This document shows positions 1-61,353 of a DNA stretch of 64,000 bases, piece by piece. The stretch's first letter is position 1, and every line of letters starts with the position of its first letter. The DNA is from Fragilaria crotonensis (taxonomy: Eukaryota; Bacillariophyta; Fragilariophyceae; Fragilariales; Fragilariaceae): the NCBI GenBank assembly GCA_022925895.1, contig JAKSYS010000209.1, positions 24,739-88,738 on the forward strand, given 5' to 3'. Below the pieces are notes generated by a model that did not search any database, was not told the origin of the DNA, and saw nothing but the letters and a program-made list of their open reading frames with translations. The position numbers and the translations under genes were made by a program.

Positions 1-990
1 GCTCGGGACGCCGGCGCATAAGAGAGCCATGGCACCGCCGGCGCGGGTAGACCGGGCGGAGACATCGGCGGGCGTGAAGGCGGGATCGGGGTAGATAGCG
101 AGGGCCGAGCGAAGGCGGTGAGTGAGGTCGTGTGGAAGGACAAACTGGAGGGGAGCGCCGGGGGCCGAGGCGAAGGCGTTCAACGGGGTGGTCGGGGGGC
201 AAGAGAGGGACCGTAACGCGCATGCACGGGCAGCGAGTGCAAGGACAGGGCAGAGGGTAGGGTGTCCCGAACGGCCATGGCCGATACGTTCGTTCCGGAC
301 GCCATTCTTCTGACGTGTAAACGTCAAGGTGGCGAAAGTGGCCGCGCGTAAGTCAGCGATGGGGCACGTCGCAAGATCCAAAGCCCGGCTCCCAATCCAC
401 AGGTGGAGGTCTTTCAAGCGAAAGAGATTGTCGGCGGGGGTCGGGACGCCGAGATATTCCCCTGGCCGCAGCAAAAAATAGAAGCCAACAATGAGACAGT
501 CGGCGGCGGCGAGCGCAGCAGGAGTGGCCTCCACCGAGGCGAGGTGGACCGTGTTGGTCAAGAGGCCAATGGGGAGGGGTTTGACACGAGATGGAGGGTC
601 GTCGGCGGTGGCCCAAGATCGGTAGAGGGCGCGGAGCCGAAAATCCAACTGGCCGTGGTTGCTCAAGCGACGGTCCGGGGCCCCCATGCCGGCATACGTC
701 TGGCCCACCGCACGGATGGCATCTTCCACCGTGCGAGAGCGGACGGTTGACGGCTGGGAGCGATGGATCCGGCGCGGAGGCGTTGAGCGAAGACTTGGAG
801 GAGAGGAACGGGGTCGGAAGGAAGGGAGCCGGGGTCGACGCCCAAACCGTGGCAGAAGGCGACCCACAGCTGCCAAGAGCTGGAAGTGGATGTGATGCGT
901 CGCGCCGACACGCGCTGCTGTGTCGCTTGCAGAACAGCGCTCCAATCAGCGCTGAGCTGGTGGCGGGTGGCACCGTCCAAAGGCGCCACG
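1..990 (-). pseudogene. YRT-1 tyrosine recombinase, C-terminus cut by window edge
   Basis: This is a phage-integrase-fold tyrosine recombinase that would integrate a circular cDNA. The N-terminal SAM-like region (WQLWVAFCHGLGVDP) is read to about base 740. After a one-base frame change the catalytic domain continues open to base 1. Box I is FLLRPGEYL with its arginine, followed by the lysine region TFTRQKNG and box II near bases 25-60. Box II reads R-S-T-R-A-G-G where YRT-2 has H-S-I-R-S-G-A, so the usual histidine is missing. The nucleophilic tyrosine lies beyond the left edge. A stop and at least one more frame change separate it from the RNase H upstream. The copy is probably dead. Confidence 0.8.
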
Positions 991-8204: not shown

Positions 8205-9955
8205 TCATTGCCTTGTAATGGCCTAGATGCATTCTGGACGGTGAGGTCACGGTAGACTCACGCCAAGCTTTCAACTTTCCAACATAATCCTCTTTACTTA
8301 TTGTAGGATATACTCGCATAGACGCGAGCTCGTCGGATATCTGTAAATGCTGTATCACTCGTTGCACGTCACTATCCATCCCTGCTGGGTACTTGTAGCG
8401 ACCGCTGAGAATATGATCTGCTTCTGGACCGTCACCGCAATATCCTAACTGATCACGCAACGGCGCTACCGTAAACGGTGTTCCATCTGCCTGTCCAAAA
8501 TGGCGACGATTCCTCTGCCGCAATTGCTCAATCACCTCCGTAGGAACATCAACTTGTCTCCACTCAGTACACGTTTTGGGGTCCTGGTCTGGGTGCACCG
8601 GAATTTCTATCCTGGATATTCCACTTCTCTCACTTTTCTCCTGAAGACGGCGAAGCTTACCAAACAACCTGTTCAATGCCTCTGCTTTATGCAATTGCCG
8701 TAATACTTTGGCCTGTGCATGATCTTTACTTGATGTGGAGGCTTCGAGACACGTTATACGACTCATTCTTTCGCTGTCCCGACGTCCGTATTGTTCTGAA
8801 ATTATGGATCGTACTTGCTGACGCGCCTCTTTTAATTCTCTGGTGCATTCTTTCTCTGTCACAGGTGGATCATTTGCAAGGCCAGCCTTGCTCCATGCAG
8901 TGCGGATAATAGCTTCATTGTTCAGACGAGTTTTTGCCATCGACAGACATTTTGTTAATATCTGCGCTTTTTGTCTCGCTTTGTGGAGAGCGACGGACCA
9001 TGGCGCTGTACCAACTCGTTGAATGGATTTTTCTGCCGCAAGACTTGCTTCAACAACATCTTTATCCAACCTCTCGGCAAAAGCATGTCGATCTCCTAAC
9101 CATGTCAATTGATCAATTCGTCGGAAAACATTATGATCTTCCAAAATTTTATACTTCCGTCGAATGTACGCTGTTACTTGTTGGCGATGGTTGGAGCGGA
9201 GAATTCGCGGTTCCAATTTCGAGAGAGGCTGGATCATGGTTCCGAATAGACTCGTGACAGAGAAATCCACAAAGTATGGTCTATGATCCGTGGTATATCT
9301 TGCGTTAAACGCTTCATATCCTGATTTGCGGACGGATTCCACAACCTTGGGTGTGGCAAGCGCATAATCCAAACATCGTGAACCTCGTGCATATGTTGCC
9401 GGCAACGTCGTTCGATGATGATGTCGCATAATATCAATCATACCCAAAGCGTTCATGACGCTTATCATGCCATCCGCTTCGCACCCGATCTCTTCATTAA
9501 AATCCCCCACCAAAAGAATCTCATGACCTGCCTGGCGACATTTTAGAAGGTATTTTTGAAGATCGCGCCGAAAAGCCTGTCGTGGATGTATAACGTCATC
9601 TTGCTCTTGGATGAGAAGGCTGTGTTGTTGTGAAGCCGCAGTGGTAAGACCTGGAGCAGGAGTCTGTGACAACTTGGTATGCTGACACGATAGTAATTAC
9701 ACTACCAGCACTGCCTAGGAAAGACTGGCTTGTCCAACGTCCCCATTTATCCCGAAATCGGTCTCGAACACGAGCACACGTATCTCCAACTGTCAATACA
9801 AACGTTCCTCCTGGTTTATACATTCTCTGAAATTCCATTGGCGTGGTACTAAAATCAAGGCGAGAACGTTGCCAGTACTGTTGTGTCGTATGATACAGTG
9901 TACTACGAACATATGCCTTTGTGGTATCCAAGTTGTGTTCTTGTCCGCATGACAC
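8173..9955 (-). pseudogene. LINE-B ORF2, apurinic-type endonuclease domain and linker
   Basis: This endonuclease-exonuclease-phosphatase domain would nick the target DNA. Visible motifs in order are CGQEHNLD (catalytic Glu region), WTSQSFLGSAG, LLVGDFNEEIG, GSRCLDYALATP and YTTDHRPYFVDF, followed by a basic helical linker of about 300 residues. A frame change lies near 9650. The domain start is at 17226-16902, separated from this part by YRT-2, which entered just before the CGQEH motif. Confidence 0.87.
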
Positions 9956-10254
9956 CGAAATAAATTCCGAGTCTTGTCCGCATTTCTCTAAGTCCGTTTA
10001 GTCGGATGAGTCGGCCGCCTAGTGGTTTCGTCGTACCGCTGTCTCGCGTACTGTCGCGTCGATTCGTGTGTTGCTGTGTGTGGTTTTCTGGATTCTCCTT
10101 CATGTTCACGAGGCTAGTGGAACTAAATAGATGGCATCGGAATCTGGTCCTAATAGTTTTGTCTCTCTCTCCTGGTTCGTCTCGCGGGGTCGGTCCCGTG
10201 ATATTCATCTAGCGGGGGTCCGTCGCGTCGTTGTGAGTCGACCTGGTTTCCGCC
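9956..10254 (-). repeat. YRT-2 split repeat b2 (3' end)
   Basis: This 299-bp repeat is nearly identical to 10493-10788, with a few short indels such as an extra 'gtg' and one extra g. Its outer end cgaaataaattccgagtc is the 3' terminus of the element. Confidence 0.92.
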
Positions 10255-10343
10255 CCATGCAGTGCATGGCCAGGAGGTAACCGGCGCCGGAGGCGCCGAT
10301 GAACCTAGGCATCGGGCCAGGAGAGGAGGTGTGGGTGGGTGGG

Positions 10344-10492
10344 ATTAACTAGAGTAGTGTCTTTGTTGATTCGAGTTCGTCCGGATTGTGAGCAATTCGC
10401 ATCTTGTGTTGTGTCCGGGTGTTCGTCTGTCTGTGTCTCGTGTTCGTCTGTCTGACGGCGACTGCTCTCCCTTTCGAACTTCGGACATGCCA
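10344..10492 (-). repeat. YRT-2 split repeat a2 (internal copy of the 5' end)
   Basis: This 149-bp repeat is nearly identical to 16751-16901. It abuts b1 with no spacer at 10492/10493, so b1-a2 forms the same junction that joining the two element ends would give. Confidence 0.92.
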
Positions 10493-10788
10493 CGAAATAA
10501 ATTCCGAGTCTTGTCCGCATTTCTCTAAGTCCGTTTAGTCGGATGAGTCGGCCGCCTAGTGGTTTCGTCGTACCGCTGTCTCGCGTACTGTCGCGTCGAT
10601 TCGTGTTGCTGTGTGTGGTTTTCTGGATTCTCCTTCATGTTCACGAGGCTAGTGGAACTAAATAGATGGCATCGGAATCTGGTCCTAATAGTTTTGTCTC
10701 TCTCTCCTGGTTCGTCTCGCGGGGTCGGTCCCGTGATATTCATCTAGCGGGGTCCGTCGCGTCGTTGTGAGTCGACCTGGTTTCCGCC
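10493..10788 (-). repeat. YRT-2 split repeat b1
   Basis: This 296-bp copy of b2 directly follows the recombinase. The recombinase frame runs about 45 bases into it before its stop at 10744. Confidence 0.92.
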
Positions 10789-12001
10789 ATTTTCCGGTTG
10801 TCGTTCGTCCGCAGGATCATGGGCGACTGTGAAGAAAGTTTGTCGATTCGTCATGCGCGTGGCGACCCTGATCGTGGTGTCTGGCACTTGGATGCGTAGG
10901 TATCTCATGAACGTCCTGCTCCGCCAACGGCCCACCATCTGTATCGTTTCGCTTGGCACACCTGCCAAGTGCATTGCCATGGCCGCGCCCGACCTAATCG
11001 AGTGCGTACCGATTCGATCGGCCTGGAGTCCCAGCCTCCTCTCCCGATAGTATTGTCGCGGCCTCAGCTGTTCGAGGATCGTTTTCGAAGAGACGTGTTC
11101 GAGCTCGTTCGATGTTGTCGATACGAAAGCGTTTATCTTCGGGTTCGTCCGACCAAGTCGTTCGTAGCCTCTAATTCTGTGAATCAATTCCGCAAGTGTC
11201 CGTACCGGACATATGTCTGCCTGACCGGGGTTGTTGTTCCTGTGCTGCGTCACCTTCGCTCCTTTGTCTCCGTTCTTTGTTGTCGATAGGTGATCGTTAC
11301 GGCGTCTGCATTTCGGGTTTGTTCGTAGGAGAAAGTCGTCAGCGTTTCGTCCTGTTTCCTGAATCGAACGTCGTCTACTCTGACTACCGATGTTCGTCTG
11401 CCGCCTCCCACGTCGGAGTATTCGCAAGACCTCATGGCGAAGAAAAAGGCCGTGACCACCAGTTGTCCGACTGCCACGTCCAACTCGTTCCTGGACCAGG
11501 ATCTCACCTTCCTGATCACTTCAAGAGGAATGGCTTGTTGTTGTGCGACTCCCGGGTCGTCGTCCGCGTACTTCTTCAATTGTAAAGCCAGAAGGGGGTC
11601 GAGGCGTCCGGCGGAGTCGTGGATTGGGCTCTCAAGTTTGTTAAGCCTGAAGGTCTGAGCCACACCGTCGAGGGTGGCACGAATGGTACCGGACATGGCT
11701 CCATTGCCATCTGTCGCAGGCTGTCTGGAGCGAAGCCGTCCGTCCCGAAGGGCGGCAGCGAAACACGCGAAGATTTCCGTCCTTTCGTTTCGTCCGAACC
11801 GGCGGAGAAAAGGTCGAGGTCGACTCCGACTCGCTCGAGGAATCGTGCGTAGCAGTTCCAGCTGCTGCTGCGCTTGGCGCGGGTTGAGTCGGCAAGAGCT
11901 GCGTTTTGCAGACGCAGCCAGTCTCCAATCTGCGAAATGAGGGCTGGCTGCAAGGGGATGATCCTGAAGTTCTGTGGGACAAAGGGTGAGCCATGTTTCC
12001 T
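10744..12001 (-). pseudogene. YRT-2 tyrosine recombinase
   Basis: This recombinase domain would integrate the circular cDNA of YRT-2. The N-terminal SAM-like region holds SSSWNCYARFLERVGVD (about 11850). Box I is FFFAMRSCEYSDV with the first catalytic arginine. Box II is HSIRSGAAMAMHLAGV with His and Arg, followed by the VGRW motif and the presumed nucleophile in FMRYLRIQV (about 10900). All four key catalytic positions are present. A single-base frame change near 11270, in an AAC repeat, and another near 11680 break the chain. Confidence 0.87.
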
Positions 12002-14243
12002 GATGAGCGAGGTGACCTCGTCGTCGTCGAGCGCGAAGTCTCGCGATAAAATGTCCGCCACCTTGTTCTCTCGCCCGGGAACCATTGAGTGTAGTGGTCG
12101 ATCTCGTGCGTCAGACAGAAATCAGCGAAACTCCTCGCGATGGTGAGGTGAAGCGGACAGTTGTCGTCGGCTGGACTTTGCCAGCCACCCTGCGGCCGAG
12201 GTGCTATCCCCTTGGCTTAGCAGGACGTCCGAGACTGGCGACCACTTTTTTCCTTCGCGGAATTCGACTACCATTCCCACGAAGGCTGCTAGAAACTCCA
12301 ACGTATTAAGTGTCGCTCGTCCCGCTAGATCTTCGGGCAGTTGGTATCGCCAAGCAATCCCGCTTTGGAGACCATATCCTCCTATCCCTTGCGGGCAAGC
12401 GTCCACCCGAACGATTCGCGTCGGCCACCTGCAGACCAATCTGTTGATGGAGATCCCTTGCGCCGCTCTTCGCAGGAAGCTCCTCCAAAGGCTCAGGTCA
12501 TCGCGTTGGGGATTCGTCAGTCTCGTCTTTCCACTTCGTTTCGATCTCTCGCATGCCTTGTAGAGTCGCCCCATGAAATGCCTGGAGTACGGGACGACGT
12601 ATGCGGCGTGGCTGAGTCGTCCGAGGGTCTTCTCCAGATCGTTCGTCGTTACGTGCGCATGCCTGTTCGCTAGGATCTTGTCGATCACTTTCGTCCATGC
12701 GTGGTATTTGTCCTCAGGCAGAGCGACCGTGAAGCGGCGTGTGTCTACCAGCCATCCCAAGATCATCTTCCGCTCAGATGGTTTCGCCTCGGCCAGGAAC
12801 TTCGGGATGGCAAGGATGTCGTCTCTGGGAAAGGATTCGTTTCCCTCTGCGTTGTGGGGTCTTCCCACTATGTGCAATGCAAGGGAATCGCTGCCGAGCT
12901 CTTTTCTGCGTCTCTTGGGTTGAAAGCCCCAAAAATGTCGTCCAGGTAACAGTCGAATCTGGGTAGATCGTCGTCGTTTGCGATCGGGTAGTTCACAGCG
13001 AAGAAATCGGCTTCTCCGAATTCGCTCGACCCGTCGATCATTCCATCGTCGTTATCTACGGCTTCGTCAGAATCAAGCAAGTGTTGATGCGGCGAGTGGA
13101 ATACCTTCGGGTCCCAGTCTGATCTCCTGACGAGGTCATTCGCAAGGTCCGTGATTACTTCGGACACGTCGCTCCACTGGGACGGGTTTGGTGCTCCTCC
13201 GAAAGTCATCCTGAGTGCCACGAGGAGCAGGTCGTCAATGCTAGTGCAAGACTTCAGGGCGGTTCGTGCCTTTAAGTGTATTCGTCTGTAGGCGGATTTG
13301 CAGTCCACCTTTGTGAGGAGGATGGGTTCTTTCGGCCACAATTGTCTGAGGTACGAGATGTGGTACATCAGTCGACTGAAAGCCCTGCCAAATCGTGCGG
13401 TCGTCAGTTGTGACGTGTCCACTCTGTCGTTTACGCTTCGTCCTGGGATCCCGCTGGGGTTGAATGACTGGTCGTGTGAGCCTTAGCTTCTCGATGGTCT
13501 GTCCCTTCTCGTCGATCGATGTCTGTGCCACCATGCCCAAAGGCGCCACCTCGCAGCCTTCTAATTCCAGAGCGGCCTCCCCTCGGTAGGGGCAGTTGCC
13601 AGCCCCTTTCCACTTCTTCTTTTAGCATTGATATCAACTTCGCTTCGTGGCCTCGGGCCGATTTGTGATTGCCACGGGCGAGGTTGTCGCGGACGTCGGC
13701 GAGGCGGTCGGCGTCGGAAATCTCGCGGAGGGGAAAATCCGCGCCGTCTGAAATGCGCTCTTGGAAGCGCGACCAGAGCGGGTGTGCGGAGAGGAGCGGC
13801 GCCAGGAGCGCGGCGGATCGAAATTCGGATCCGGGTGTCACCGCGCTGAACGGTTGGGCGTCCACGGCTGCCCCGAGGTCCAGCGCGTAGCGCCGGAGGA
13901 CTGCCAGGTTGTGAGCGGCCGCCTCGTGAGTCCATTCGAAGCGGAATTCGGTCGGGTGCGTCGTCGGCTGGGGGGCGTCGAGGATGCTGGCCAGAGCATC
14001 GGCGAGTCGAGGTTCGGGAAGGCGCGGGAAAGGCGAGTCGACATTCGGAAGCGGTATCGTCGGAAGTGGAACCAGGGCGAGTGACTTACCGTTGGTCCTA
14101 GGACCCCCAGAGGGGGGTGTCCAGGAGTCGTGACGTGAGACGAACGTCCTCGTTCGCAGTGCCGGGGCGGTCAGCTCCGCGGCGGACGGTCGTGGGCGGT
14201 CGGGCGGGGCGAGGCGGTGTCGCGGCCGCGAGCGATGTCTCAT
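12002..14243 (-). pseudogene. YRT-2 reverse transcriptase and RNase H
   Basis: The N-terminal stretch is Pro-rich. RT begins around FPLREISDADRL, then VAPLGMVAQTSIDEKGQ (the block before the fingers). Motif A is ILLTKVDCKSAYRR, the motif B region is MTFGGAPNPSQWSDV, and motif C is FDCYLDDIFGAF near 12945. RNase H follows with RVDACPQGIGGYG, NTLEFLAAFVG, LSQGDSTSAAGW and the closing block VPGRENKVADILSRDF near 12030. It would copy element RNA into cDNA. Frame changes occur near 13480, 12870 and 12120. Confidence 0.85.
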
Positions 14244-14398
14244 GCGTGGCGATCGTTGCCGTCGGGCGTGGTTGTGCAGCCGGGATTGCTATGGACGGAC
14301 CCGCTATGGGTCCATCGGTCGGCTGGCGCGAGTCGCGGAAAGGCGGTGCGTCCCCTGTCGTTCGTCGATTGTGAAATTCGCGATGGGCTGCCTCGTGA

Positions 14399-16686
14399 TC
14401 AAAGGACCACCGGGAAGGCTGAGCGACGAAAAAGTTGTAGTGTAAGCAGATGCAGAGGTCCTAATTTCGTTTTCTTGCTGGGCGGCGTCGAGTCGGACGA
14501 GGGTCGGCGCATGCGCGCCCTGCATTGTTCGATCCATGCCCTAACGCTCGCGGTTTGTTCGGTCGTAAGGGCGACGTGCGAAGCGCTCAGGAAGCAGCTC
14601 CGGACACACTTGCCGTTCAAGTGCCAGCGGCAGCACATGTTCGGGAGCGGCCCGCTCCGCACGTGATCGAGGAAGACCTGCCAGACGTCGTTGGCGTCCT
14701 TCGTGAACAGGTCCTGCTGCGGGTTCGTGACAGCGTCTGCTGGTTGTCCCTTTCGTCCAGATCGTGCGCCGCCTCCTCCTGATGCGCTGGGGGCTTCCGC
14801 CTTCGCGGCAGCGCTGCCCCCGGACCCCATCCTGTCTTTCAAGAAGTCGCAGGCGGGGAAGACGAAGGCTCCGTCCTCCAGTTGCTGACGCGTCGAACGG
14901 AAGTCTAGCAGATTCAGGTTGATATCGTCCTCGTGTTCCACTCCTGCGCACAACACCAAGTATTGTTGCGTTTCTCGATGAACCAACCGAGGCGACAGGC
15001 GGCCGAGTTGTCTTCGTGAGCTAGCTGTCGTAACGTCGCTAAGGTCGATCCGACTGCTCGCGTCAGGAAACGACACCACTCGTCCAACATATGCGTCAAC
15101 GGGGACCGCGGGCCGAAGAGGAGCTCGGCCACCCCGCCATGTTCTCGAGTAGTCGCGCGAGCTCGTGAAAATCACGCGGGATAGTGAAATTGAGCTTCGT
15201 CATGCTCTTGATGTCTTTGTCCGAGAATCCAGTTGTCGTGTCTGTCGTCTTAAGTTGCATTTGAACAAGGGTGCTTGCGTGGTCGAGAGCATCCCTGCCC
15301 GTCGCGTTCGATCGTGCGAGCGTCTGGGGCCCGCAGCAAAAAAGGCTGAAGGCTCCTGGTCTGTCCGAAGCGTCGGCTAGGAAGGATGCGGTCCGAATGG
15401 CTGCGCAGAAACCCATTGGGATGAATGCATCCCTCCCTTTCGTGTTGCGCAAGAAATGGTGTATGTGGTTTTGGACGTACGCCACGTTGCTGAGCGCTAG
15501 GATGTCTGCGAAGGTCTGGACGGGGCGAGTTGGGGTCCTCCCAAGGCGTCCTTCTCCGAAACGAACAGGATCATCCGCTTTGTCGACGGGGGAACGAGTC
15601 GAATCCTGTCTTCGGGATTTGAGGAGATGACGCGACTGCGCTAGCGACCTGTCTTTCGAGGAGGCTCGACAAGTTTCTGATGGCGTCGTTCTCTCGTCCT
15701 GGCGTTTCTGACTGATCGTCCGATTGGATGAGGCTTTTAGCCTTCACGGCCAGGTACTTCATGTGTAGGACTTTCGCCCAGTCGTCCGCTCGCCTAGAGT
15801 AAGCTGACGAAGCCGCCACTCCCACTTTGTTGGACCGTGAGTGGTTCTGGTGCTCGCTGCAACGCAGAGAACCCATCGAGGTACGTAGGACGCTGCTTCG
15901 GCCAACCTCGACGCCCGGTCGGGGTCCGGGTCCTCACTCGCCCTCTGTTTGATGGTCCTGACTATCATCAGGGCCAATTCCTCAGGGTCGGTGACGTATG
16001 ATTCCATGATGGCTGCTGCGATGAACGCCGGAACTGGTACTGTCGGTTTCATGGTGAAACCGACGACCGTGACGTCTTCTGTGTCGTCCGCGTCCGCGTC
16101 GTTCGTCTTGTCTTGGTCGTTAGTCTCGTTAGTATGTTTGCTCGACTTGGATCTGCCTCTTGGGGCACTGCCTTCTTGGGGCGTCCTCTCGTCGCTGCCA
16201 CAGGAGGTGGCTCCCGCGCCGGCGCCGATGCCTGTCCGGCGCTCGCTGACGCCTGACACCGAAGATCTCGTCGTCACCAATTCTTCAATCGCTCTTCGTA
16301 CGTCGGACGTAGAATTCCACGTGAGCATTTTGGACCAATCGTAAGGCGTTCCAACGTGGCTTCTGACGATCTGTTTCGTGTCGACCGCCATGGCGGCTGC
16401 GAATCCACCGCCGCCGAGAAGTGCCCATAGGGCGTTCGTTCCGTCGTTTAGTCCGTCGTCGGCGTCGTGGTGAAAGTGGTGGAACAGACGGATCGTCCCG
16501 TGCGTGTTTACCATCAGGTGTGCGATGTCCGGCGAACACAGGTGTACAAACCCTGTAGACTGTATTAATCGAATTCGATTTCGTGTGTAATCTGTTGAGC
16601 TTCGGGACCACTTCCCACTGGTCAAGGGCACGGAAGACGTCTTCCCACGTAGACGTCATCGTCATAGGGGACGACATGTCGGCCAT
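14399..16686 (-). pseudogene. YRT-2 Gag-like protein
   Basis: The first ORF of YRT-2 starts at ATG 16686 (MADMSSPMTMTSTWEDVF), 65 bases after repeat a1. It reads through five or six pieces in different frames. There is a helical region with AVDTKQIVRSHVGTPYDW, a Ser/Asp-rich linker, a mid block GRDAFIPMGFCAAIR and a C-terminal Cys/His cluster CX8CX3CX5H (near 14610: CCRWHLNGKC...). The same cluster spacing ends the Gag of YRT-1. A nucleic-acid-binding capsid role is inferred from position and cluster only. Confidence 0.7.
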
Positions 16687-16750
16687 CCTATCTGCGTTCG
16701 TCGTTCGAGTCGTCGGTCGGTTGGTGGTTTGAGGGAAGAGGCCAGATTAA

Positions 16751-16901
16751 ATTAACTAGAGTAGTGTCTTTGTTGATTCGAGTTCGTCCGGATTGTGAGC
16801 AATTCGCATCTTGTGTTGTGTCCGGGTGTTCGTCTGTCTGTGTCTCGTGTTCGTCTGTCTGACGGCGACTGCTCTCCCTTTCCCGAACTTCGGACATGCC
16901 A
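16751..16901 (-). repeat. YRT-2 split repeat a1 (5' end)
   Basis: This 151-bp copy of a2 forms the 5' terminus of YRT-2, starting tggcatgtccgaagttcg on the coding strand. It is likely to hold the promoter, but I recognise no motif. Confidence 0.9.
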
Positions 16902-17226
16902 ATCGGCTTGCACTTCTTTGAGCACTCGACAAAACATATCATACTGACCTCCCATTCGATCAAGTGTAAATCCATTCACATTTGCACAATAAACCCGAAA
17001 AATATCCTCTCCTTTGTCCTCCAAAGCCTCCCCATTGTACATTTGATTTCATATTAGAGTGTGTTAGGAAAATTCCTGATTGACATTGATTCGCTATGGC
17101 CACGTTCCGCAGCGAAGAGTCTTTTCCATGCCGCTTGAGCTGTTGCAAGACAAGCAGACTCCTGTGGGGCATTCTGGTTGGGTGCCAGAACACCCTGTTC
17201 ACGTTTACCTCGATGGGCGCACTCAT
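16902..17226 (-). pseudogene. LINE-B ORF2, N-terminal segment
   Basis: It starts at ATG 17226 (MSAPIEVN). That ATG overlaps a TGA in the ORF1 frame as ATGA, although ORF1 now stops two codons earlier at a TAG. The early part matches LINE-C ORF2 (NMKSNV-WG, VNGFTLDRMGGQYD, FCR-LKEVQAD), with a frame change near 17010. It ends at KEVQAD where YRT-2 begins. Confidence 0.8.
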
Positions 17227-17231
17227 TTTGA

Positions 17232-19772
17232 CTACATAGGATTGGTCAGCCCACGAGATTCCGATCGGGCCAACCGGGTTTGATCCTCTTGATTAGATAT
17301 ATCGCCTCTAGTCTCATCTCTGTGAGGTTCGGCGCTCGGGATCGACGTTTGTCGCGTATCTTGGTGTTGGGATGCAATATCTTGTAGCTCATCGCTACTA
17401 ATGACGTCATCAGCTAGAACTCCTGGCGTTGATTCGTAATAAGAATGATGAATGGATGATTGCTCTATCGTCGGCAATTTGGCTCGAGTCAAACGACAAC
17501 TCTTTGCTGCAATCGTGCAACGGGTGACTGGGATGGTCCGATACATCGGGCTCGGGGTCTTGCACGTAGGGATTTTCTGGCGTCCAGACTGTAGAACGAT
17601 GAGTTGACCGAGATCTGAACTGCTGTGTCGCTTGTTCTTCTGACATGTCTGATTCGGATTCTGCAGTTTCGGGAGGTAAAGAAGCATGCGGAGGATACAT
17701 TACTGGAGACGCCTGTTGTTTTGCAGGTGATTCACGAATAAATTGCCGTTTACGGCCGCTCGTCAATCGCCTACCACGAACGTCGTGCACTTCCAGGTCA
17801 TCTTCCGTGGTATCGGCATGTTCACTGGCTCTTTGTACTGATTAATTCCAACATTAGGAAAAGATGTCGATTGTTGCATCATTTGCATCACCATCTCGGT
17901 TAACATTTGCATGTGCCGATTTTGAGCTGCCATAAACGTCCGAAAATCTGAGTCTGAATTTTGAGCAATGAATGATGTTGGCTGTTGACTCGGTCGCTGC
18001 TGGAGTATCGCTTCACTTGCTTGCCGATTCGCGATCCATCTCTTGCTGCTGAGTTGCAACTTGACGTTCAAATTCCTGTCTTTGGTTCTGCCAATTGTCG
18101 TTCCATCTCCATACGCTGTTCTGCCACCTGACTTTCAAAAGACGTTGTTGATCAGCCGCTTACGTTCCAACTCTCGCTGTTTATTTTCTGCCTGACGTTC
18201 AAGCTCTAAGGCTTGTTGTTGCAGTTTTAAATCCATTTCGCGGCGTTGATGCTCGGCTTGACGTTCAAGTTCACGTTGATAAGACTCTTTCGACACTTCG
18301 AATTGATGCAACTTCATTTTGAGTTCCTCTACTGCTCTTGACGCCAAGTCAGACATGTACTCTTCATCGTATGTGGTTTGCGATGTGGAGGGTGCTTCAG
18401 AAACCGACGCTTGACGAGAGGTTCCCTTGACTCGTTGTGCCCATGTCTTCGAACGGGAGCTCGATCGATCACTTGGTTCTTTGGCTGTCAAGTCAATAAT
18501 AGACGGTGCATTATCCGATGCTGAATCCTCCGACATTGTTGCTGCGTACGACATTGCAGTGTTGATACTCGATGACAAATAAGTACCTTCGCCACTAGAA
18601 TATCCATCAGAAAACAACGGAGCAACTTCGGTGGGGTCACGAAATCGCTCATTGATAAGTTTTGCATCAGCAGATACATGGGTTTCGAACCAATCTTGCA
18701 GTTGAGATATAACACTGTTTCGAGCCTGATGAAAGGCTGCCTTATTCACCAACACTTTGTGACGTCCATCGTGTACAACATTTGAACCTGCAATAACATC
18801 TCTAATTCCAGGAACCGCTTTGATATGATCGGACATGTAATACATAGCATCTATACTCACGTTGTTCATGATGAAAACGTGATTGTCGTGCATGTGCTGT
18901 GTTTGTTGTCTGATAAACCGAACATAGGCCTCTGGATGCTTAGATCTCAATTGAAATGGAACGAAGTCATGTGTATCGCTATATGCGCGTTTCAACGTCT
19001 TCAGCAATTCCATCGAGTCCAGTTTTGCGGTTTCGATTGCATATGCTTTCGTCTTGATGGTCTTCCCGCAATGTTTGATCTGTGGAGTGGTGAAAGCCAA
19101 TTGAAACTTTGGAATTTTTGTCCGGGCCGGCAATTTACTCTGTATGTCTTGTCGCAATTTTTCGGTTGCGGTTGCGACGTCATAAAACTGTGGGTCTAAG
19201 CCCATGACAAATCCAAGTTGAGTGGTATCCCAGATATCCTCGGTCCATCGGTGCTCAGTAAGGAAGCAGTTGTTGTCTCGGAGAAGACGATACACTTTAG
19301 GTATGTTTTTGATTTCGGAAAGGGTTACAGACGTCCGAATTCTGTGAATAATCAACGCGGAACCTTTCGGAGATGCGATATACTTCTGGTGTTCACCTTG
19401 GACAGTATCTCTGACTCTAGATCTTGAATTGGAGTGATGAATTTGAAACTGTTTGGAGTGCTGCCCTATGGTCCACCTCATAGTGTCTACAATAGGCATG
19501 GTTTGCCCATTGTTATTCATGATCTGAATATCTGCACCACAATATTCTTGGACTGCTTGAATCCAATGAAGATGGATCTTGGACGGCGACACTGGTTCTC
19601 CATTGTTGTTCAGAAGAAATCGGAATTTCACTGTTTTCTCGACAAGGTGTTGGACATTTGTCCTTCCACCACGTCCACCGGGTGGCGTAACATCTGAGGC
19701 ATCGTCTGAGATTCCTCTCACAACCGATGGTACACTCCCATCTCTGGGAGAGCCGACGGGGAGGTCGGTCAT
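17232..19772 (-). pseudogene. LINE-B ORF1 (coiled-coil RNA-binding-type protein)
   Basis: It starts at ATG 19772 (MTDLPVGSPRDG). The first 545 codons are open. An N-terminal domain of about 330 residues, with no motif I recognise, is followed by a Ser-rich linker. A long Gln/Glu/Arg-rich coiled coil begins near residue 470 (LERQAEHQRREMDLKLQQQ). Frame changes near 18150, 17780 and 17640 interrupt the rest, which carries a basic patch (GRKRQF) and an acidic tail. It is homologous along its length to LINE-C ORF1. By analogy with LINE ORF1 proteins it would bind element RNA; that is inference. Confidence 0.82.
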
Positions 19773-22800: not shown

Positions 22801-23193
22801 GTGTCGAACATGATTTTTCGAACGGACGCTTGTGTCGTGTCTACTTTGTGTTCTTGACCACAAAACACATCCGCTTGTATCTCTTTGATTGAGCGGCAGA
22901 CCGAGTCGAATTTGCCTCCTTTTGCATCGAGTTGGAGACCATTTAGATTGATTGCATAGACTCGCGTGATAGCTGCGGTTTTCTGTTGACGTTCATCGCC
23001 CCAAGGGTTATTTACCCGACTGTTTGCTGTACTTAATTTCGTTGCTCTTTCGACATACTGCTCTATTTCTGGTCCGCTGTGACGTAACGTAAGGGTCCGC
23101 CATTGAGCTTGGGCTCGCGTTAACGCTGTTTGGATTTCTGGGTTGATACTTTGTAATGGAGGTGGAGTCGTGAGGCCCGTACCACCTATTCAT
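19869..23193 (-). pseudogene. LINE-A ORF2, N-terminal half (endonuclease and reverse transcriptase)
   Basis: ORF2 starts at ATG 23193, which overlaps the ORF1 stop as ATGA. After one frame change near 23010 it is open for more than 1,000 codons to the LINE-B insertion. Endonuclease motifs are FCGQEHKVD, LLVGDFNEPLG, GSKRLDYALASP and IATDHRGYFMDF. RT motifs are TNYDATACYDRIIPN (A), YGTGQGSANSPAIWC (B) and ISFVDDCNGQTN (C). The last element codons encode CSSLKKKQL, and the protein resumes at 4237. This is the longest open stretch in the window. Confidence 0.9.
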
Positions 23194-24618
23194 GAGTCCG
23201 CCGCCCCAGCTGGACCCGTTTCGAATGTGTATTGGGGGTCCAGGGGAGCTGGTGGAGTGCAACTCGACTGCTTGCTGTCGTCGTGTACAATCGAGCGAGT
23301 ATTCGTGTTGGTAAATCGTGGTGTGACCGCATCAGGAGTTGGTGATTGAGTCATTGTGTAGTTGTCGGAATGGATATCATCTGTTTCGGTCGCTTCAAAC
23401 CGATTGTTCAAATCGACACACACTTCCTCTTGGGATGAGAAGTCATATTCAACCTCTGCATGATATGTCTCATTCTCGACGTCATCCTCGTTGTCGTCAT
23501 CGATCGTCATATCACCAAGGACTAATGATTCTTCTGACTGGTCAAAGAGCATCGAGGCATCATCCTGTTCGCTATGAGTATGGAGAAGTGTGACGCCTTC
23601 TCGAGTTCGCTTTGGTGGTGGAGATCGGATCATGCCTTCTGCTGAGGACCCTGTCGTTAGATCACTCGTATGGTAACCGCTAGGCCTCATATTCGTACCC
23701 TGGGTTCCGCCTGGTATCAGAGTCAAGGGAGGTTGATGTGCCTGTGACGCATTCCGCACTGCGATGTCCTGGGCCATTAATCCGAATAGCCTTGCGCGTT
23801 CTGCCCTGATATCCGTCATCGAACTCGTCAGAATACTCACGTTCTCTCCCGACGCTACCAAATGTTCTCCGATTTGTTCAAATTGTGTTGCGGTGTTGAC
23901 TTGAATTGCAGACAAACTTCCCGAGATTTTACCTTAGGTGTCCACAGATTCCTCTAATTGTTTTACCACTTGCTGCAATTCTGACTGGACTTCTTCAATC
24001 TTTTTACTCGTATCTGTCGCAAAGGTCTGGAACTTTTCTTCGAGGGATTCTAATTGTTTCGATGCTGCTCGCCCCGCGATTTGAAGGGATTCCAACTTTT
24101 TCTTTGTTGCGACTTCCAATTCTTTGAGTTTGGTTTGGTATTTGGAGTCCGATGCCAGTGTTAGAGATTGCGTGGATGCTGTACTGAGGTCGTCTGTGCC
24201 CACAGATAGCCGGCCTTCAAGACTTAACGAGTCATCTTCGCTTACTTGTTGGTGTTCTTTTGCTTTGTCGGACGAATTCTGATCTGACTGCGCCGGCGGA
24301 GTCGTCCATGCGTTTTTTGACTGCTTTGTCGGAAACTGTGTACTGATGTTCTTCTTTTTGTCCTTCCCTACTAACGACGAGGAGTGTGGCTTTCCCAGAT
24401 ATGTTGGTAGTTTTTGCCAAACATCAGCCGTAGATAAGGTATCCATGAACGAAACATTTGAATCGGCTGCCGTTTTAATATGTATCTCATCTGGGAGATC
24501 AAGCACGCTGTCTCGGAATCGTGCTTCTCGATGACTTGGAGGCGAAAGCCTTAATCGGTACAACCTCAACTCTTCCTTAGCTTGGTCAAAATACTGTGCC
24601 GGTACTAAAAGATATGCC
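23190..24618 (-). pseudogene. LINE-A ORF1, 5'-truncated
   Basis: This codes for the C-terminal part of ORF1: a Ser/Lys-rich stretch, a coiled coil (YQTKLKELEVATKKKLESL ... LEEKFQTFATDTSKKIEEV), then an acidic tail ending GPAGAADS. A TAA at 23934 splits the coiled coil. The frame continues cleanly after it, so it looks like a single nonsense change. Because of the truncation the frame is fused in frame to YRT-1 RNase H at 24619, giving a chimeric ORF with no upstream stop. Confidence 0.82.
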
Positions 24619-24635
24619 TCACTCGCGCCAATGTA
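24619..24635. repeat. Target-site duplication of LINE-A, right copy
   Basis: tcactcgcgccaatgta, a 17/17 match to 1464-1480. Confidence 0.9.
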
Positions 24636-26178
24636 GTGGGGCTCCCGGGGATGCAGTTCCGGCAGGCGCGTTGGGCGATCCTGTAGCGCGTCTGCTAAGT
24701 CGCGGAAGTCAGCTGCCATGTCACGTACTCGCTTCGTGATGCGCACGCGGTTACCACTCGAGGTGTGCAGAGAATGCTGCAAGATGGAGAAAAGCCCTTT
24801 GGAGCCCGGCAGAGCTGGCGACATGGAGCGCAACTCCCCCAGCAACTTGTGCCAGAAGGTGACGGATGCACGTTTGCGGGGTGGGTCAAGGTGTTGGAGA
24901 AGGTCGTACAGACGCTCGAGTCTATGCTGCGGCAGCTGCATGGTGTTGGCACGGGTGTCGAAATCCCATCCAAGAATCCGTTTTCGTGTACTCCAGCAGG
25001 CATCCCCTTTTAGCATCTTCTTAACGGATGCTGGCTCTTTGCAATGGAGGGGATCTGCTGGTTCCAAGGGGCGAAACACGTCGTCAATAGCTTGGAGTGT
25101 GTTCCGAAGGACGTTGCGTTTCTGGGGCTCCGTTTGGGCCATGAGCAAGAAATCGTCGACATAGACGTCGACACGTGCTACCGGGGCCGCCCGTGCTGTG
25201 GCCGGTGCCGACAGCTTGCGGGCTGCCATGTGGTGCTTTCCTCAACGACGTCGGATGGGGGCGTTGCGGCGATTGCCTCCAACCGATGCATCGTGCTGCG
25301 GGGTCGCTCGTCGGTCGAGAGGCGGCGCAGGCGATAGTTGGAAAGATCACACGCGGTCTCGGTGAAAGCACAAAAGTAGGGTGGGGATTCCACCCACCCC
25401 ATGGGTAGTGCCAAAGGAAACGCCACAAGGTGCGGCGCTCCAGTAGATGTTGGCAAAACGACTCCTAATTTAGGTATGTCGCGAAAATTCAGCCATACAC
25501 GGTAGAAACCGATGTCAATTTTGGACAGATAGACGGGTCCGTACCTGGGGTCACTTTCCACGATGGTTTGGATAACCCGCTGCAATGCTCGCCCGAATTG
25601 CATCGCCTCCTTTGGAGCGAGCGCGAGCGTATCATCATTGAGGCAGAGTAACTGTAATCGACGATCAGTCTCGGCCGTCGATCGCGCTGAGGTACCACTC
25701 CCAACGGCGACAAACGGAGGTTTGGCCACTCGCGGACGCTACCGTAAGGCAGAACTGCCCAGTATCCCTGGGAACAGAAGTCGAGTATCTCCTCGAAGAC
25801 AAACTCGCGTTCCCCTTGCGAAGACTTATGGGGGCCCCTGTGCATAGCCTGGTCCCGTCGCTCCAGCGTCCACAGTGGTGTGGAGGTTGTTACATTGGCA
25901 CCCCTCAGCCGTAGGTGGTTTAACAGGCGCGCGGCTTTGTGGGGGAGATTGCGCACGTGCGTTGCTATGTTGGACGCCCCCCGGGCACTCACGACGAACG
26001 AGGACCAGCCATGCGAACGAACAGACGATGCGGTGCTCTGTGCTAACTTACCGAGTGTGGCTTCCGCAGCTGAGATGGATGACGCTTTCCGTTTCTCTCT
26101 GATCGAATTGCGACCCCCACCTCCGTCTTCCTCCTCCGCCGTAGTGCGCCAAGGCGGCGCGGTGCGAAGCCAGGACAA
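24636..26178 (-). pseudogene. YRT-1 reverse transcriptase and start of RNase H
   Basis: Three frames are needed (changes near 25640 and 25200). The pre-palm block reads LRLSPLGVVPQRDRRPRLIVDY. Motif A is VYLSKIDIGFYRVWL, the motif B region is FPLALPMGWVESPPYF, and motif C is VDVYVDDFLLMAQ near 25160. The connection block RKRILGWDFDTRANTMQLP leads to the RNase H start HYIGAS at 24636. No ATG opens the frame cleanly (the first codon at 26178 is TTG), so the start is uncertain. Confidence 0.8.
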
Positions 26179-26208
26179 CTCTTCGTCCGAGTCGTCCTGG
26201 CCTGCACG

Positions 26209-28396
26209 TCAGGCGGTGGTGCTTGCGGCTGGGGCTGCAACGTGATCGCGGCAGTAAGAGAGGAGCCGCGAACGTTCGCCCGGGGATGCGAAGTTGACGT
26301 GTGTTTGTGCTCGACCGCAGTTATCGAAGCACGCTCCCCGTATCCACCAGGCTAGGCAGAACTCGTGTCCCGCGTCGTTCGTTGGGGGACGGTGAGCCCA
26401 AATCACCGGGCGTGTGCCCCCCGCTCGGACTACGATATTCGCGAAGTCGTTGTCCCGCGTTGGGTTAGCGACTCGCGTCGCTTGTTGCTCGGGTGCTGAG
26501 GCACGCGTAGTTGCTGTCGTGAGAGACGACACTCCGGTGCTCACGGTTCCTGCACTGCCCAAAGCGTTTGCGACTGTGCGTACTCCGCCTCCGCTGTTAC
26601 TGGTTCGGGCCACCACGTACTCGGCCGGTAGTGGGATCCAGTTCGATGACAACGGAAAGGTGCCCCACTTGAGCTCGGTCACAAGTGTGCGGAATTCTGG
26701 CAGCTCAACGCCCGTGGTGTCGTCCGCCAAGTTAGTGCTTACAGCGTGTAAGTACTCGAAAACGTTGACCTGCACGGAACGTACGATGCAAGGGAAATAT
26801 ACGTTTGCGATGTTTGGGTTCCCGGCCACCTGTTGGAAACGTTCGGTTATGTATGGAGTGGCGTTGTTGATGGATGCCGCCAACTGCCACACGCGTTCGA
26901 CGAAAGGGTGGCCCGGTCCAACACCTTGGAACAACGTCTGGCACAGCACGGCATACCGCGTCAATGTAATAGCCACATCCACCGTGTCACGCGGAAACCT
27001 AACCTTTTCTTTTTCTTTGATGGTGGCGTAGTCAGTTAGGCTGGTGGACTGATCCCCTTGCGCCAGTTGATGGCTGATGCTTGCCACAGCCAGGGACTCT
27101 AGATGATTCGCCGTGCCCGAGTAAGCCACTTGAAACGGTTGGCAGCCCGAGCTCAAATCGTCGACGCCGTGCCCAACAAATAGGAAACCCACAATCATTT
27201 GCTTCAGACTGGTTGTGACAATGGGGGTATATAGTTCCGTGTCGAGGCCTCGTGCTTGGCAAACCCGCTGGAACTCCTGTATGAGAAGAGTGTGTTGTTC
27301 ACTCTTCACACAATTGGCCAGGCGCCCCCAAACGGGCGCTACGTCTTCGGGCGCGACACATTGTTGAATCGGAGGAGCGTTCGAAACGTTTCCTTGTACA
27401 CGTCCTGGATGAGCTTGGGCTCTTTCACTGCGCGCTCGCCTGCTGTTGCTCCATCCGCGGCACGTGCGTTGGTGAGAGTTCTCAATGCACCCGCCAGAGT
27501 GCCGGTTGCCTCAACAGTTGCAGGATCAGGCTCCCCCAGTGCCGGCAGGTCAGCGCGTACCTTGCTTATGAGGTACCGATACACCTGCTCCGGCAGATGC
27601 ACCGCGGTTAATGGATATAGCACACTGGGCAAACCATTCTGCGCTCCCCCGCCACCGCGAGCGGTACATGCTGCCCTCAACCATGTGAGGACGTCCGCAC
27701 ATGCCACAACCTCGTCACATGCGAGCATGCTGCCGTATAGTTCTTGGTAGACTGCCTTTGCCGTTACCGCTCGGCGGTGGATGAGAAGCGATGCGTAATA
27801 TCCCGGGATTAACTGGACGTGACGTGGTCGCACGACTTCAGTCTCTGGGGGTCCACATCAGTGTACGGTCCCAGGGGCACCGACGGATCTTCCCATGTCG
27901 GGAGGAGAGTGATCATGGCCGCCACTGTGGGGACGCGAACTGGCGTTTGAACTAGATGAAATGCGGAACCCGGGACTTCCACCACGGGGTATTGATGTGG
28001 CATGATGTCACCATGAAGCCCCAGCACTTGGTCGTTGAATCCGGAGTCAGGTTCTCCCGGCATGTCCATGTATCGCATTAGTCGATGGAGCACGGTGACC
28101 TCGAGAGTGTCACCCGGACCATTGGTGAGAACCAAAAAATTCATGGGTTGTCTATCGCACAGATGGACCGTTTGATCACGTAGGAGTATAGGTGCTGGCA
28201 CCGCGCCCGCGCCTCCGTCAAAGCGGTAGCCGAATAAATACGCCGCGATGCGGTCACGCGTCGGTCCGATGGCGGCGTCGCTCAGAAGCTCACGATACGT
28301 ACGCGGGCGTATCGCAGCGCCCACCGGGGCCGGTGGCACCTCGGGTGCTACGAAGGGGGGGCCCGGTACATTGGGCGGTGGTACTGGTAGGGCCAT
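26209..28396 (-). pseudogene. YRT-1 Gag-like protein
   Basis: It starts at ATG 28396 (MALPVPPPNVPGPP, Pro-rich) and reads through three frames with changes near 27830 and 27330, for about 720 residues. There is no recognisable fold in the N-terminal two thirds. The C-terminus carries CLAWWIRGAC...C.....H (near 26330), a CX8CX3CX5H cluster like that in YRT-2 Gag. Its position upstream of RT and the cluster suggest a nucleic-acid-binding Gag. Confidence 0.7.
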
Positions 28397-29196: not shown

Positions 29197-30506
29197 ATGC
29201 AGGAGAATCGCGATCGCCGCAGAGCTCTAGAAGGTAACGCAAGTGTTGCCAAAAGGATTGGTCCATGCAGCACCACCGAGTGGACCAATCTGTGTACCCG
29301 AGTTACGAACGGTAGTCTCGTTGAAAACACCTCAGGTTGGTTCCGCAAGCAATCCAGACATTGATCCCGGAGCGATTCCAGTACCACCATCTCGAGTCAT
29401 TGTCACAACTTGGACAGTCAGGCCTCCAAGTACTCAGGTTGAATTCTCCAGCGAGTTTACGAATGAAGATTCAAAGCAGGATGAGGAGGTGCCCAGCTTT
29501 GCAGGAACGACTACTGGAACACCCGACGACAGTCGCATGCCTCATTATAGCGGTTTGTACACTACGCAAGACCAAGGGGTATCGGATGTACCGCATGGAA
29601 ATGAGGTGGGATCGACGATGGTAGGCGATGCCCAAAACGTCGGAACGCAATGGTATCAACGTCCCGTGTATCGATGGATTTTGGTGGGCTGTATCTTGTT
29701 CGTGTGCGGACTTGTTGGCGCGGTTGTTGCACTGGTTACAACTCTCAGTCGATCAGGGCAAACTACGACTCAAGAAGAAACAATTGCATGCCAATTTCTT
29801 TCTATTCCGGATCTGACTGTTTGTCAATCGACTACATCGTTTGACTCGGTCAATACTGACGACAGAACGACCGGTTCTACAATTCCAAGTGCGATCGGAC
29901 TCTTGACACAGTTGACATACTTGGATTTCTACGGCAATCAGTTGACTTCCACGATTCCAACCGAGATCGGACGCTTGACAAGGCTGAAGGCTCTGGCGTT
30001 CTACAATAACTCGTTGACGTCCACAATTCCAAGTGAGATCGGACTCTTAACACTATTGACCGAGTTGTATTTTTAACAACAATTCATTTGCGTTCACAAT
30101 TCCAAGTGAGATCGGATACTTGACACGATTGACGGGAATGTCGTTCTGGATCAATGAGTTGACTTCGACTATTCCAAGTGAGATTGGGCGCTTGACAATG
30201 TTGACATTCGTGTCGTTCGCCAGAAATGCGTTGACTTCGGCAATTCCAAGTGATATTGGACTCTTGACACGATTGACGTACTTGGATTTCTCCGACAATT
30301 TGTTGACTTCCACAATTCCAAGTGAGATGGGACTCTTGACACAGTCGACGGTCTTGTTTCTGGACAATAATCAGTTGGGGGGGACAATTCCATCATCGCT
30401 CTGCTCACTCCCTTCTCTCAACTCGAAAATCTACGTCGACTGCGGTGAAATCGCATGCAATTCAGGATGTTGCTCGGATTATTACTCTGGTTCTTCTTGT
30501 GGCTAA
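29197..30506 (+). CDS. Membrane-anchored leucine-rich repeat protein (frameshifted)
   Basis: This is a type II-like LRR protein of the diatom kind. A Ser/Pro-rich presumably cytoplasmic region of about 140 residues precedes one transmembrane helix (RWILVGCILFVCGLVGAVVALV). The ectodomain has at least eight repeats of the form LTSTIPSEIGLLTRLTYLDF, closing with the Cys-rich cap IACNSGCCSDYY. There is no kinase domain. ATG 29197 opens another frame (MQENRDRRRALEG), so a frame change near 29300 is assumed; the repeat frame itself has only a GTG at 29243. A second change sits in a T5 run at 30070-30074, with repeats resuming at once. Cell-surface recognition is inferred. It may be a recent pseudogene. 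Confidence 0.75.
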
Positions 30507-33294: not shown

Positions 33295-35336
33295 GTGCAA
33301 GCGTTGAAGATGACAACGCACGTGTTCTGGCTACAACTTATCAGAACGCCACAGGGGAGAGTGCATGCCTTCAAACCGCTCAGGAGGCGTGGAGGAAGAT
33401 ACTAACGGCGACTGGAAAACGAGAATCACAAGTAAATCGGGAAATATTTTTAACAAATTTGAACATGAAATCAAACGTACCCTGGGGAGACTCACTGGAG
33501 GAAAAAAGAGATGATACCTTTCGAGTCTATTGTGCAAATGTAAACGGCTTTACACTTGATCGTATGGGAGGTCAGTATGATACCTTTTGTCGAATGCTCA
33601 AGGAAGTGCAAGCTGATGTGTCACGCGGACAGGAACATAATTTGGACATCACAAAGGCGCACGTCCGAAGTATATTGTATCACACGACACAACAGCATTG
33701 GCAGCGTTCTCGTCTCAATTTTAGTACAACACCAATGGAGTTTCAGCGAATGTACAAACCAGGAGGCACCTTTGTATTGACAGTAGGGGATACCAGTAGT
33801 AGAGTTCGTGACCGATTTCGAGACAAATGGGGTCGCTGGACGAGTCAGTCATTTTTAGGAAGTGCAGGACGGCGGGTTATCACCATAGTATCTGCATACC
33901 AGGTTGTCACCGATTCACCGGTTCCGGGTCTCATTACTGCGGCCTCTCAACAACACAGCCTCCTTCTTCAGACGCAGGACGCAGTTACAAATTTCGGAGG
34001 GACCTTCAAAAATATCTACAAGAGTGTAGACAGGATGGTCATGAACTTCTATTGGTGGGCGATTTTAACGAGGAGATTGGACGAGAAGTAGACGGTATGC
34101 TCTCACTCATACAAGCATTGGGTATGGTAGATATCATGAGGCATCAACATCCAGTCACATTACCTGCAACATACGCAAGAGGATCGCGGTGCTTGGATTA
34201 CGCTCTCGCTACGCCCAGACTAGCGGACGCAGTTCAAAAATCCGGATATGAAGCATTCAACGCAAGGTATACAACGGACCACAGGCCATACTTTGTGGAT
34301 TTCTCAGTCGAGCTCTTATTTGGAATCACGATAAAGCCTTTCTCTACACTCGAACCGCGTATCCTCCGTTCTAATAATCGTCAGCAGGTGACAGCTTATA
34401 TACGGCGGAAGTATAAAATTTTGGATGATCATAATGTTTTCCGACGGATTGACCGGTTGACATGGTTAGGTGATCGACATGCCTACGCTGAAAGACTGGA
34501 TAAAGCTGTTGTCGAGGCAAGTCTTGCGGCAGAAAAATCAATTCAACGTGTCGGTGTTTCACCGTGGTCCGTAGCCCTACATAAAGCCAGACAAAAAGTG
34601 CAGATATTAACAACATGTTTGGCGATGGCAAAAACGCGATTGCAGAATGAAGGCACCATTCGGGAGGCATGGACTAAAGCAGGTTTTCCAAATGATCCAC
34701 CTACGACAGAAAGGCAATGCACTAGCGAACTAAAGGAAGCACGTAAGCAGGTGAGATCCATCGTCTCAGAACAGTACGGACGACGGGACAGCGAAAGACT
34801 CAGCCGCATTAGCCATCTTGAGGCATCTGCTTCCAGCAGAGACAAAGGACGGGCAAAATACTACGACAGATCCATAAAGCCGAAGCATTGAATCGAATGT
34901 TTAATAAGCTCCGTTGCATGCAGGCTTGTACGGAGAGAAGTGGAGTATCGAGAATTGAAATTCCAGTACATCCAGATGAGGATCCCAAGACGTGCTCCGA
35001 GTGGAGAGAGGTTGACGTTCCTACGGAAGTGATTGAGCATTTGCGACAGCGGAATCGCCGACACTTTGGCCAGGCAGACGGTACACCCTTTACAGTATAG
35101 CCCCTTTCTGAGCAACTAGGCTATTGTGGCGACGGGCCAGAAGCCAGAAATATTCTCCACGGCCGATATCAGCATCGAGCAGGGATGGATAGAGATGTGC
35201 AACGGGTGATACAACACTTGCAGATTTCTGACGAGCTCGCACAATTGCGAGTTTACCCCACCATTAGCGAGGCAGATTACGTTGGAAAGTTAAAGGCGTG
35301 GTGGGGAGTCTACAGTGACGTCCCCTTCAAGCAAAA
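33291..35336 (+). pseudogene. LINE-C ORF2, endonuclease domain and linker
   Basis: It starts at ATG 33291 in the ATGA overlap (MSASVEDDNARV). Endonuclease motifs are RGQEHNLDI, LLVGDFNEEIG, GSRCLDYALATP and YTTDHRPYFVDF. The basic linker follows with frame changes near 34000, 34855 and 35100. The stretch around 33620 (EVQADVSRGQEH) is uninterrupted and is the equivalent of the YRT-2 insertion point in LINE-B. Confidence 0.87.
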
Positions 35337-60895: not shown

Positions 60896-61353
60896 GCCAG
60901 GTAACGGTATGTTGCTTTCCGTTCACAATACGATTTGCAACACATGGATCGTACGGATTCACCTTGAATCCAATGGACTCGATATCCTTGCGAAATTTCT
61001 TGTAATAGAGCAGCGACGATTGGAGCATTCCGTATAGAGCCTTCTCCATAACTACGTAGAGGACCTTGCTGTTACCTTCGTACACAACGTACGGCGCGTA
61101 AGTCTCTGGACTTAATTCCAATAGCATGTCGACCAACGGTCCACGAATCTTCATGATGATTCTCTCACCAACCTTCTTTTCATCGATGTCTGTCTGCACA
61201 AATGCGTTTGGGATGTCTGCCGTCATAACGTCACGACGTTGTTTCGCGTCAATCACTCCGGTGATGACTATAGACTCCGTCATTGCTGTCGGACTCGCTG
61301 CTTCGTCGCGATCCGTGTACTCTCTGAGACTCCCATTTGCGCATGTTCGTCCC
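60888..61353 (-). pseudogene. Copia Pol, RT palm region
   Basis: In-frame reading from about 61353 gives RTCANGSLREYTDRDEAASP. MTESIVITGVIDAKQRRDVMTADIPNAFVQTDI follows; its D-I-P-N-A-F is the Copia motif A. KALYGMLQSSLLYYKKF is the motif B region. It ends at HTVTW before the broken VDD motif. An intact RT would need the frame changes on both sides repaired. Confidence 0.87.

Follow-up and report, generated by a model that had tools for sequence, protein, structure and literature searches.

Ngaro elements have been described in the stramenopile Cafeteria burkhardae (PMC8547959) and in the brown alga Ectocarpus, with 15 families in the latter (PMC12477816). They carry split direct repeats in the order A1-[ORFs]-B1A2B2 (ORF, open reading frame), encode Gag, reverse transcriptase (RT)/RNase H and a tyrosine recombinase, are GC-rich and about 6-7 kb long, and have no methyltransferase. 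These features, with RT/RNase H recognised as motifs, are shared by the element described here, which occupies 9956-16901 of a 64,000-nt stretch (the window) of the diatom Fragilaria crotonensis (GCA_022925895.1, contig JAKSYS010000209.1). PAT-like elements (the echinoderm form of Pat1, Toc3 and Kangaroo) also have split direct repeats, and Pat1 also has a Gag zinc finger; unlike the diatom element, however, PAT elements encode a methyltransferase, and the recombinase gene of Kangaroo is inverted (PMC4157794). DIRS1 of Dictyostelium resembles our element in its RT/RNase H (in ours, motifs), tyrosine recombinase, circle junction (in ours, presumed) and lack of target duplication, but differs in its inverted repeats, its methyltransferase and, in the published model, a 3-bp target identity (PMC3266345). 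Crypton and CryptonS elements of a diatom and oomycetes are likewise tyrosine-recombinase mobile elements of stramenopiles, but without RT and with terminal direct repeats of 4-6 bp (PMC3212892). The literature we found reports Ngaro elements from brown algae and Cafeteria and none from diatoms, in which a Ngaro-type element is now documented.

The window element, 6,946 bp long with its genes on the minus strand, is of the DIRS order. We consider it, with a probability of roughly 90%, a recently active tyrosine-recombinase retrotransposon of Ngaro type by structure. On the minus strand its parts follow in the order a1, Gag, RT, RNase H, tyrosine recombinase, b1, a2, an 89-bp spacer and b2. The features, in window coordinates, are as follows.

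9956..16901, minus strand: whole element; ends common to 37-46 copies, 100% empty sites
16751..16901, minus strand: a1 terminal repeat (5' end); the terminal A is 16901
14399..16686, minus strand: Gag region; start near MADMSSPMTMTSTWEDVFR (16630-16656); frames broken in the window copy
12868..13600, minus strand: RT core, placed by motifs only; start approximate
12041..12412, minus strand: RNase H D-E-D-D (VRVDACPQG, TLEFLAAF, QGDSTSA, VADILSR); motifs kept in sister families
10803..12000, minus strand: tyrosine recombinase; weak match to Pfam PF00589 and a PHROG integrase match; residues invariant in sister families
10493..10788, minus strand: b1 internal repeat
10344..10492, minus strand: a2 internal repeat
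10481..10518, no strand: internal a2|b1 junction, a copy of the presumed circle junction; nested palindrome
10255..10343, no strand: spacer from a2 to b2; present in 40 scored copies
9956..10254, minus strand: b2 terminal repeat (3' end)
16797..16797, minus strand: putative RNA 5' end, placed by one aberrant junction, that of copy C366b
10133..10140, minus strand: putative RNA 3' end, from three truncated copies and the C366b junction
33549..33687, plus strand: LINE-C (LINE, long interspersed nuclear element), a diverged empty site (C125:58287-58425; 86% over 139 bp)

The terminal sequences of the element copy the internal a2 and b1, not each other. Within the a repeat, the 132-nt stretches 10344-10475 and 16751-16882 are 100% identical, with 151 nt counted up to the terminus, and the full repeats (16751-16901 and 10344-10492) differ by short indels without any substitution. 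The same holds for the b repeats (9956-10254 and 10493-10788; 0 substitutions), and a or b pairs inside single copies differ by 0-1 substitutions. A search of 9000-18000 for inverted repeats at least 30 nt long found none, so the inverted terminal repeats and internal complementary region of DIRS1 have no counterpart here.

For comparison with other copies we used the same diatom assembly (62.1 Mb, 881 contigs), in which copy counts are lower bounds. Scored sites numbered at least 40 for each of these three parts: b end, a end and spacer. Left (b2) ends of 37 distinct intact insertions all started with CGAAATAA, exactly at the equivalent of 9956, and 41 distinct right (a1) ends (46 copies) all stopped at GCCA, exactly at that of 16901. 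An earlier note on this DNA, made from the sequence alone, had proposed the split-repeat order and both borders; repeat comparison and dozens of copies bear out the order, and the intact copies genome-wide share the two end points, with no case of other end points among them. The copies form two subfamilies with about 80-90% identity across the element ends. Split repeats and a CCA|CGAA junction were also present in the sister families C24, C144, C597 and C187, and internal repeats downstream of the recombinase in C24, C597 and C187.

Some copies departed from this layout. Copy C665 has the form a1-body-b, without a2, spacer and b2 but with normal outer ends, and this form probably arose by recombination between b1 and b2. 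In C409, just one b and one a stretch were detected, possibly the same form as C665. At C722:69852-83235, about 13.4 kb separates the element ends compared with the usual 6.9 kb, probably reflecting a nested insertion.

To look for empty sites, we fused the two flanks of each of 14 copies and searched the genome for the joined sequence. For seven insertion sites the search gave empty matches of about 140 bp that were ungapped or nearly perfect, with 99-100% identity. Each empty site is another copy of the host repeat at a different place in the genome, not a proven allele. The window copy had two such sites (C279:56966-57105 and C218:709541-709680), each matching at 140/140 bp (100%). Empty matches were also at 100% for C722, C264p and C665 and at 99% for C40, C411 and C53, with rougher agreement for C841 (97%, small gaps) and C74 (90%). 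Because the joined flanks match uninterrupted genomic copies, nothing was duplicated or lost on insertion, and the seven base-exact empty sites show the absence of target-site duplication expected for the DIRS order. The clean insertion claimed in the earlier note is thus upheld. LINE-C, which it had read as the same LINE without the insert, is indeed an empty paralogue, though C279 and C218 provide better empty sites. At least 9 of the 14 insertions examined sit in other repeated genome sequences, some of them repeated at least five times.

The element is real, complete and recent. In pairwise comparisons of six copies over approximately 6.9 kb, substitutions numbered 2-22, against 26-67 indel events, most of them of 1-3 nt and more than half in homopolymers. 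Genuine decay would also have added substitutions, so most frame breaks, which are homopolymer indels, are probably unpolished long-read error in the assembly. The description "structurally complete" therefore holds for the DNA but not for the reading frames of the window copy, which are broken, most probably by such indels. Long Gag ORFs were found in copies C785 and C249 and in sister family C409. The sister families, which have fewer copies and 52-62% protein identity, retained long frames: in C24, Gag of 481 aa, Gag-RT-RNase H of 1,257 aa and recombinase of 455 aa; in C409, a frame of 1,586 aa spanning Gag to RNase H. Across the assembly, young repeats were rich in homopolymer indels and poor in substitutions. 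Gene models in such repeats should not be labelled pseudogenes before polishing.

As in other DIRS-order elements, a tyrosine recombinase takes the place of a DDE integrase or endonuclease. Its match to PF00589 had E values of 7e-5 to 8e-4, under the curated cut-off, and that to the PHROG integrase 1e-4 to 3e-4. The catalytic-type residues were R in FAMRSCEY (11418-11441), HxxR in THSIRSG (10987-11007) and Y in FMRYLR (10894-10911), and R, HxxR, W and Y were retained in three families. The Gag region contains a zinc-knuckle-like CCRWHLNGKC...H near 14606-14635. For RT and RNase H, motifs alone show all the expected elements, conserved across eight relatives; those of RT include motif A, KVDCKSAYR, at 13285-13311, YLDD at 12931-12951, and FGGAPNPSQW.

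Three observations weigh against our assignment. RT and RNase H had no match among Pfam, PHROGs and PDB profiles, so that RT is recognised by motifs; by published description, RT and RNase H of the Cafeteria Ngaro are, by contrast, recognised by Pfam. The structure predicted without alignment for the window RNase H piece had a predicted local distance difference test (pLDDT) score of 34 and was unusable. In sister family C24, the recombinase ORF shares about 520 nt with that of pol, a difference from the Cafeteria and Ectocarpus Ngaro, and Ngaro elements usually have no ORF overlap (PMC3266345), a trait that is typical rather than defining. About 80 residues separate FGGAPNPSQW from YLDD in our RT. 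This spacing is longer than usual for RT and may be the reason why the profiles miss it. A profile comparison of the element's RT with that of the window LINE was not significant, though motif A was aligned, and public scans of viral and genome contigs yielded no relatives. A programmed frameshift between pol and recombinase was also considered and dropped: a shared slippery site was not observed, and the frames are confused by assembly indels.

The earlier note had left the class at "PAT/Ngaro-type". Szitenberg et al. give a key in which an element that has split repeats, and whose internal copies lie downstream of the recombinase, is Ngaro or Viper if it lacks a methyltransferase and PAT if it has one (PMC4157794). 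Split repeats, internal copies in that position and a Gag zinc knuckle would also suit the echinoderm form of Pat1 (PMC4157794), and both Ngaro and PAT-like families occur in brown algae (PMC12477816), so a PAT-like element, of the DIRS group proper and with a methyltransferase, had to be weighed. No methyltransferase match was found in any ORF examined, a result that is weak alone since RT is equally unseen by profiles. The recombinase, however, begins within about 100 codons after RNase H and runs to b1, leaving no room for a methyltransferase after pol. With match and space both lacking, the element is therefore of Ngaro rather than PAT type by the published key; the Ngaro half of the earlier label stands, and we regard a PAT-like element as improbable. 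A long terminal repeat (LTR) retrotransposon or other integrase element with merely apparent split repeats would have RT, RNase H and Gag-like ORF motifs in common with ours. It was rejected, with a negligible chance of being right, on the seven base-exact empty sites without target duplication and on the repeat order, in which termini copy a2 and b1 and not one another; the tyrosine recombinase also speaks against it. The many homopolymer indels of the assembly could raise suspicion that the element or its repeats are artefacts of assembly. This too was rejected as next to impossible, in view of the same layout at at least 40 places with different flanks and of 100% empty sites elsewhere.

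We numbered positions on the circle junction as GGACATGCCA(-1)|(+1)CGAAATAA. Host targets obeyed a loose rule that can be written A/T | N-G/T-C/G. A or T stood at -1 in 30 of 37 distinct sites (p 4e-4), G or T at +2 in 39 of 41 (p 8e-10), and C or G at +3 in 35 of 41 (p 9e-7). Identity to the circle junction was not required at any position (+1 C in 9/41, +3 A in 2/41, -2 C in 15/37), and no position was identical in all targets as would be expected from a DIRS1-type identity with a 3-bp circle junction. All intact insertions showed a single phase, in which the left end is the host base at -1 followed by CG and the right end is the element's A followed by host bases. The phase is directly visible in the window, C722 and C40 insertions, where the host base at -1 is T or C and the empty site is known.

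The exchange point, 10492|10493, lies in a palindrome with arms at 10482-10487 and 10512-10517 and an inner palindrome at 10493-10506. The a|b junction sequence of the presumed circle, seen in its internal copy, is GGACATGCCACGAAATAA. The junctions of the main family and C24 led us to predict an outer pairing of -12..-6 with +20..+26 around a palindrome at +1..+14; on either side five bases would stay unpaired, and the exchange point would fall at the foot of the inner hairpin. In junctions fetched after the prediction, 13/13 positions were paired in C144, 12/13 plus a G-T pair in C597, and 11/13 in C187 (P approximately 5e-5 each against base shuffles); the inner palindrome of C597 is 17 nt. 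Arms predicted from two families thus hold in three more, and a palindromic fold at the crossover site is conserved, as in integrons. Over seven junctions, 92.9% of cells paired, with four pairs changed on both sides; covariation exceeded that of all 500/500 shuffles, a comparison that overstates significance as the seven junctions are interrelated, and slid controls fell to 25-46%. DNA folding z-scores were -4.7 for C24, -4.7 for C144, -4.2 for C597, -2.3 for C187, -1.7 for the main family and -0.5 for subfamily 2; the hairpin fold is weak in the window's own family. We did not find such a junction palindrome or target rule in the Cafeteria and Ectocarpus Ngaro reports.

Arms that co-vary are compatible both with a pair of binding sites for the recombinase and with a single strand that folds. 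For DIRS1, the accepted model (PMC3266345) starts from a double-stranded circle: the tyrosine recombinase exchanges both strands in its usual way, across a short overlap that is the same in circle and target (3 bp in DIRS1). We give such a reaction about an even chance here. The inverted arms could simply be two recombinase binding sites, and the two bases mildly favoured in targets, A at position -1 (20/37) and G at position +2 (22/41), are those of the circle. Yet no junction position requires identity, as the counts above show, and under the standard mechanism a mismatched two-strand overlap would be expected to give two reciprocal phases after replication, whereas all intact insertions show one. 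The dyad would also imply cuts 14-17 bp apart. Cut spacing in the tyrosine-recombinase family is usually 5-8 bp.

In integron cassettes, the crossover between IntI, a tyrosine recombinase, and attC is set by a palindromic fold and not by sequence, with a single exchange point (PMC4792948). Integrons differ in being bacterial and in having no reverse transcription, and single-strand use is proven there but only inferred for the diatom element. Position and single phase make a folded single strand worth testing. A circle of complementary DNA (cDNA) might be integrated as a folded single strand in this manner, its a|b junction forming a nested hairpin, with a one-strand exchange by the tyrosine recombinase at the hairpin base and replication completing the insertion. 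By analogy we consider this possible but rather doubtful. If true, it would explain the single exchange point, the absence of required homology and the loose target rule. The evidence as a whole makes it conceivable that a eukaryotic retroelement uses a single-strand step like that of integrons.

Aberrant copies suggest where the transcript begins and ends. In three copies (C182, C249 and C366b) b2 was cut at the equivalents of 10133-10140; among about 40 spacer-bearing copies no other breaks inside b2 were found, and one further copy, C431, starts in the spacer. In C366b, a2-spacer-b2' is fused at 10138 straight to a1 at 16797, followed by the body, b1, a2, the spacer and a b2 ending at 10133. 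A genome search for further junctions of this type gave two one-mismatch matches (C122, C658), both unrelated. These copies are consistent with a transcript that starts near 16797 and stops near 10135, its two ends having on one occasion been joined directly to each other. In C249, b2 is truncated at 10135, a 36-bp duplication of host DNA (one mismatch) lies beyond the truncated end, and the a1 exchange point is the usual one, as if the recombinase had joined the a end only.

In the likely cycle, an RNA would start within a1 (about 16797), end within b2 (about 10135) and be copied by RT and RNase H, as their motifs suggest. The outer a and b parts missing from the RNA might be restored on the internal b1-a2 template, and this restoration would close a circle with the a|b junction GGACATGCCA|CGAAATAA, of which the internal copy is directly seen. 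The tyrosine recombinase would then use the A|C step of this junction to connect it with host A/T|N-G/T-C/G sites, and the ends, target rule and empty sites show joining without homology, duplication or loss. Closure and insertion of the cDNA of tyrosine-recombinase retrotransposons have so far been modelled mostly from repeat anatomy. Dozens of near-identical copies, exact empty sites, a target rule, copies that may mark transcript ends and a palindrome co-varying across sister families turn the old model into direct tests.

Elsewhere in the window, a second, truncated Gag-RT element lies in a GC-rich island at 23190-28396 (minus strand). It has a zinc knuckle, CLAWWIRGACFDNCGRAQTH, and an RT with YVDDFL and ILGWDFDTRANTMQLPQHR; no long repeats or recombinase were found in it, it is unseen by Pfam, and it looks DIRS-like. 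At 1-945 (minus strand), an ORF continuing beyond the window resembles a tyrosine recombinase of another family (LRPGEY ... SARSTRAGGAMALLCAGVPS), in which the usual His of HxxR looks replaced; it had no Pfam match. Pieces of a Copia-like polyprotein (CCHC knuckle, RNase H end) lie at the right end, 59930-63993 (minus strand), and 29243-30076 (plus strand) is a repeat-rich receptor-like ORF.

The diatom host named in the earlier note agrees with 19 silicon-transporter matches in the genome (best E 4e-193). There were also tandem-fused silicon transporters: an open frame of 1,456 aa at C97:29749-33762 holds three domains, and another of 1,008 aa at C771:21664-24330 holds two.

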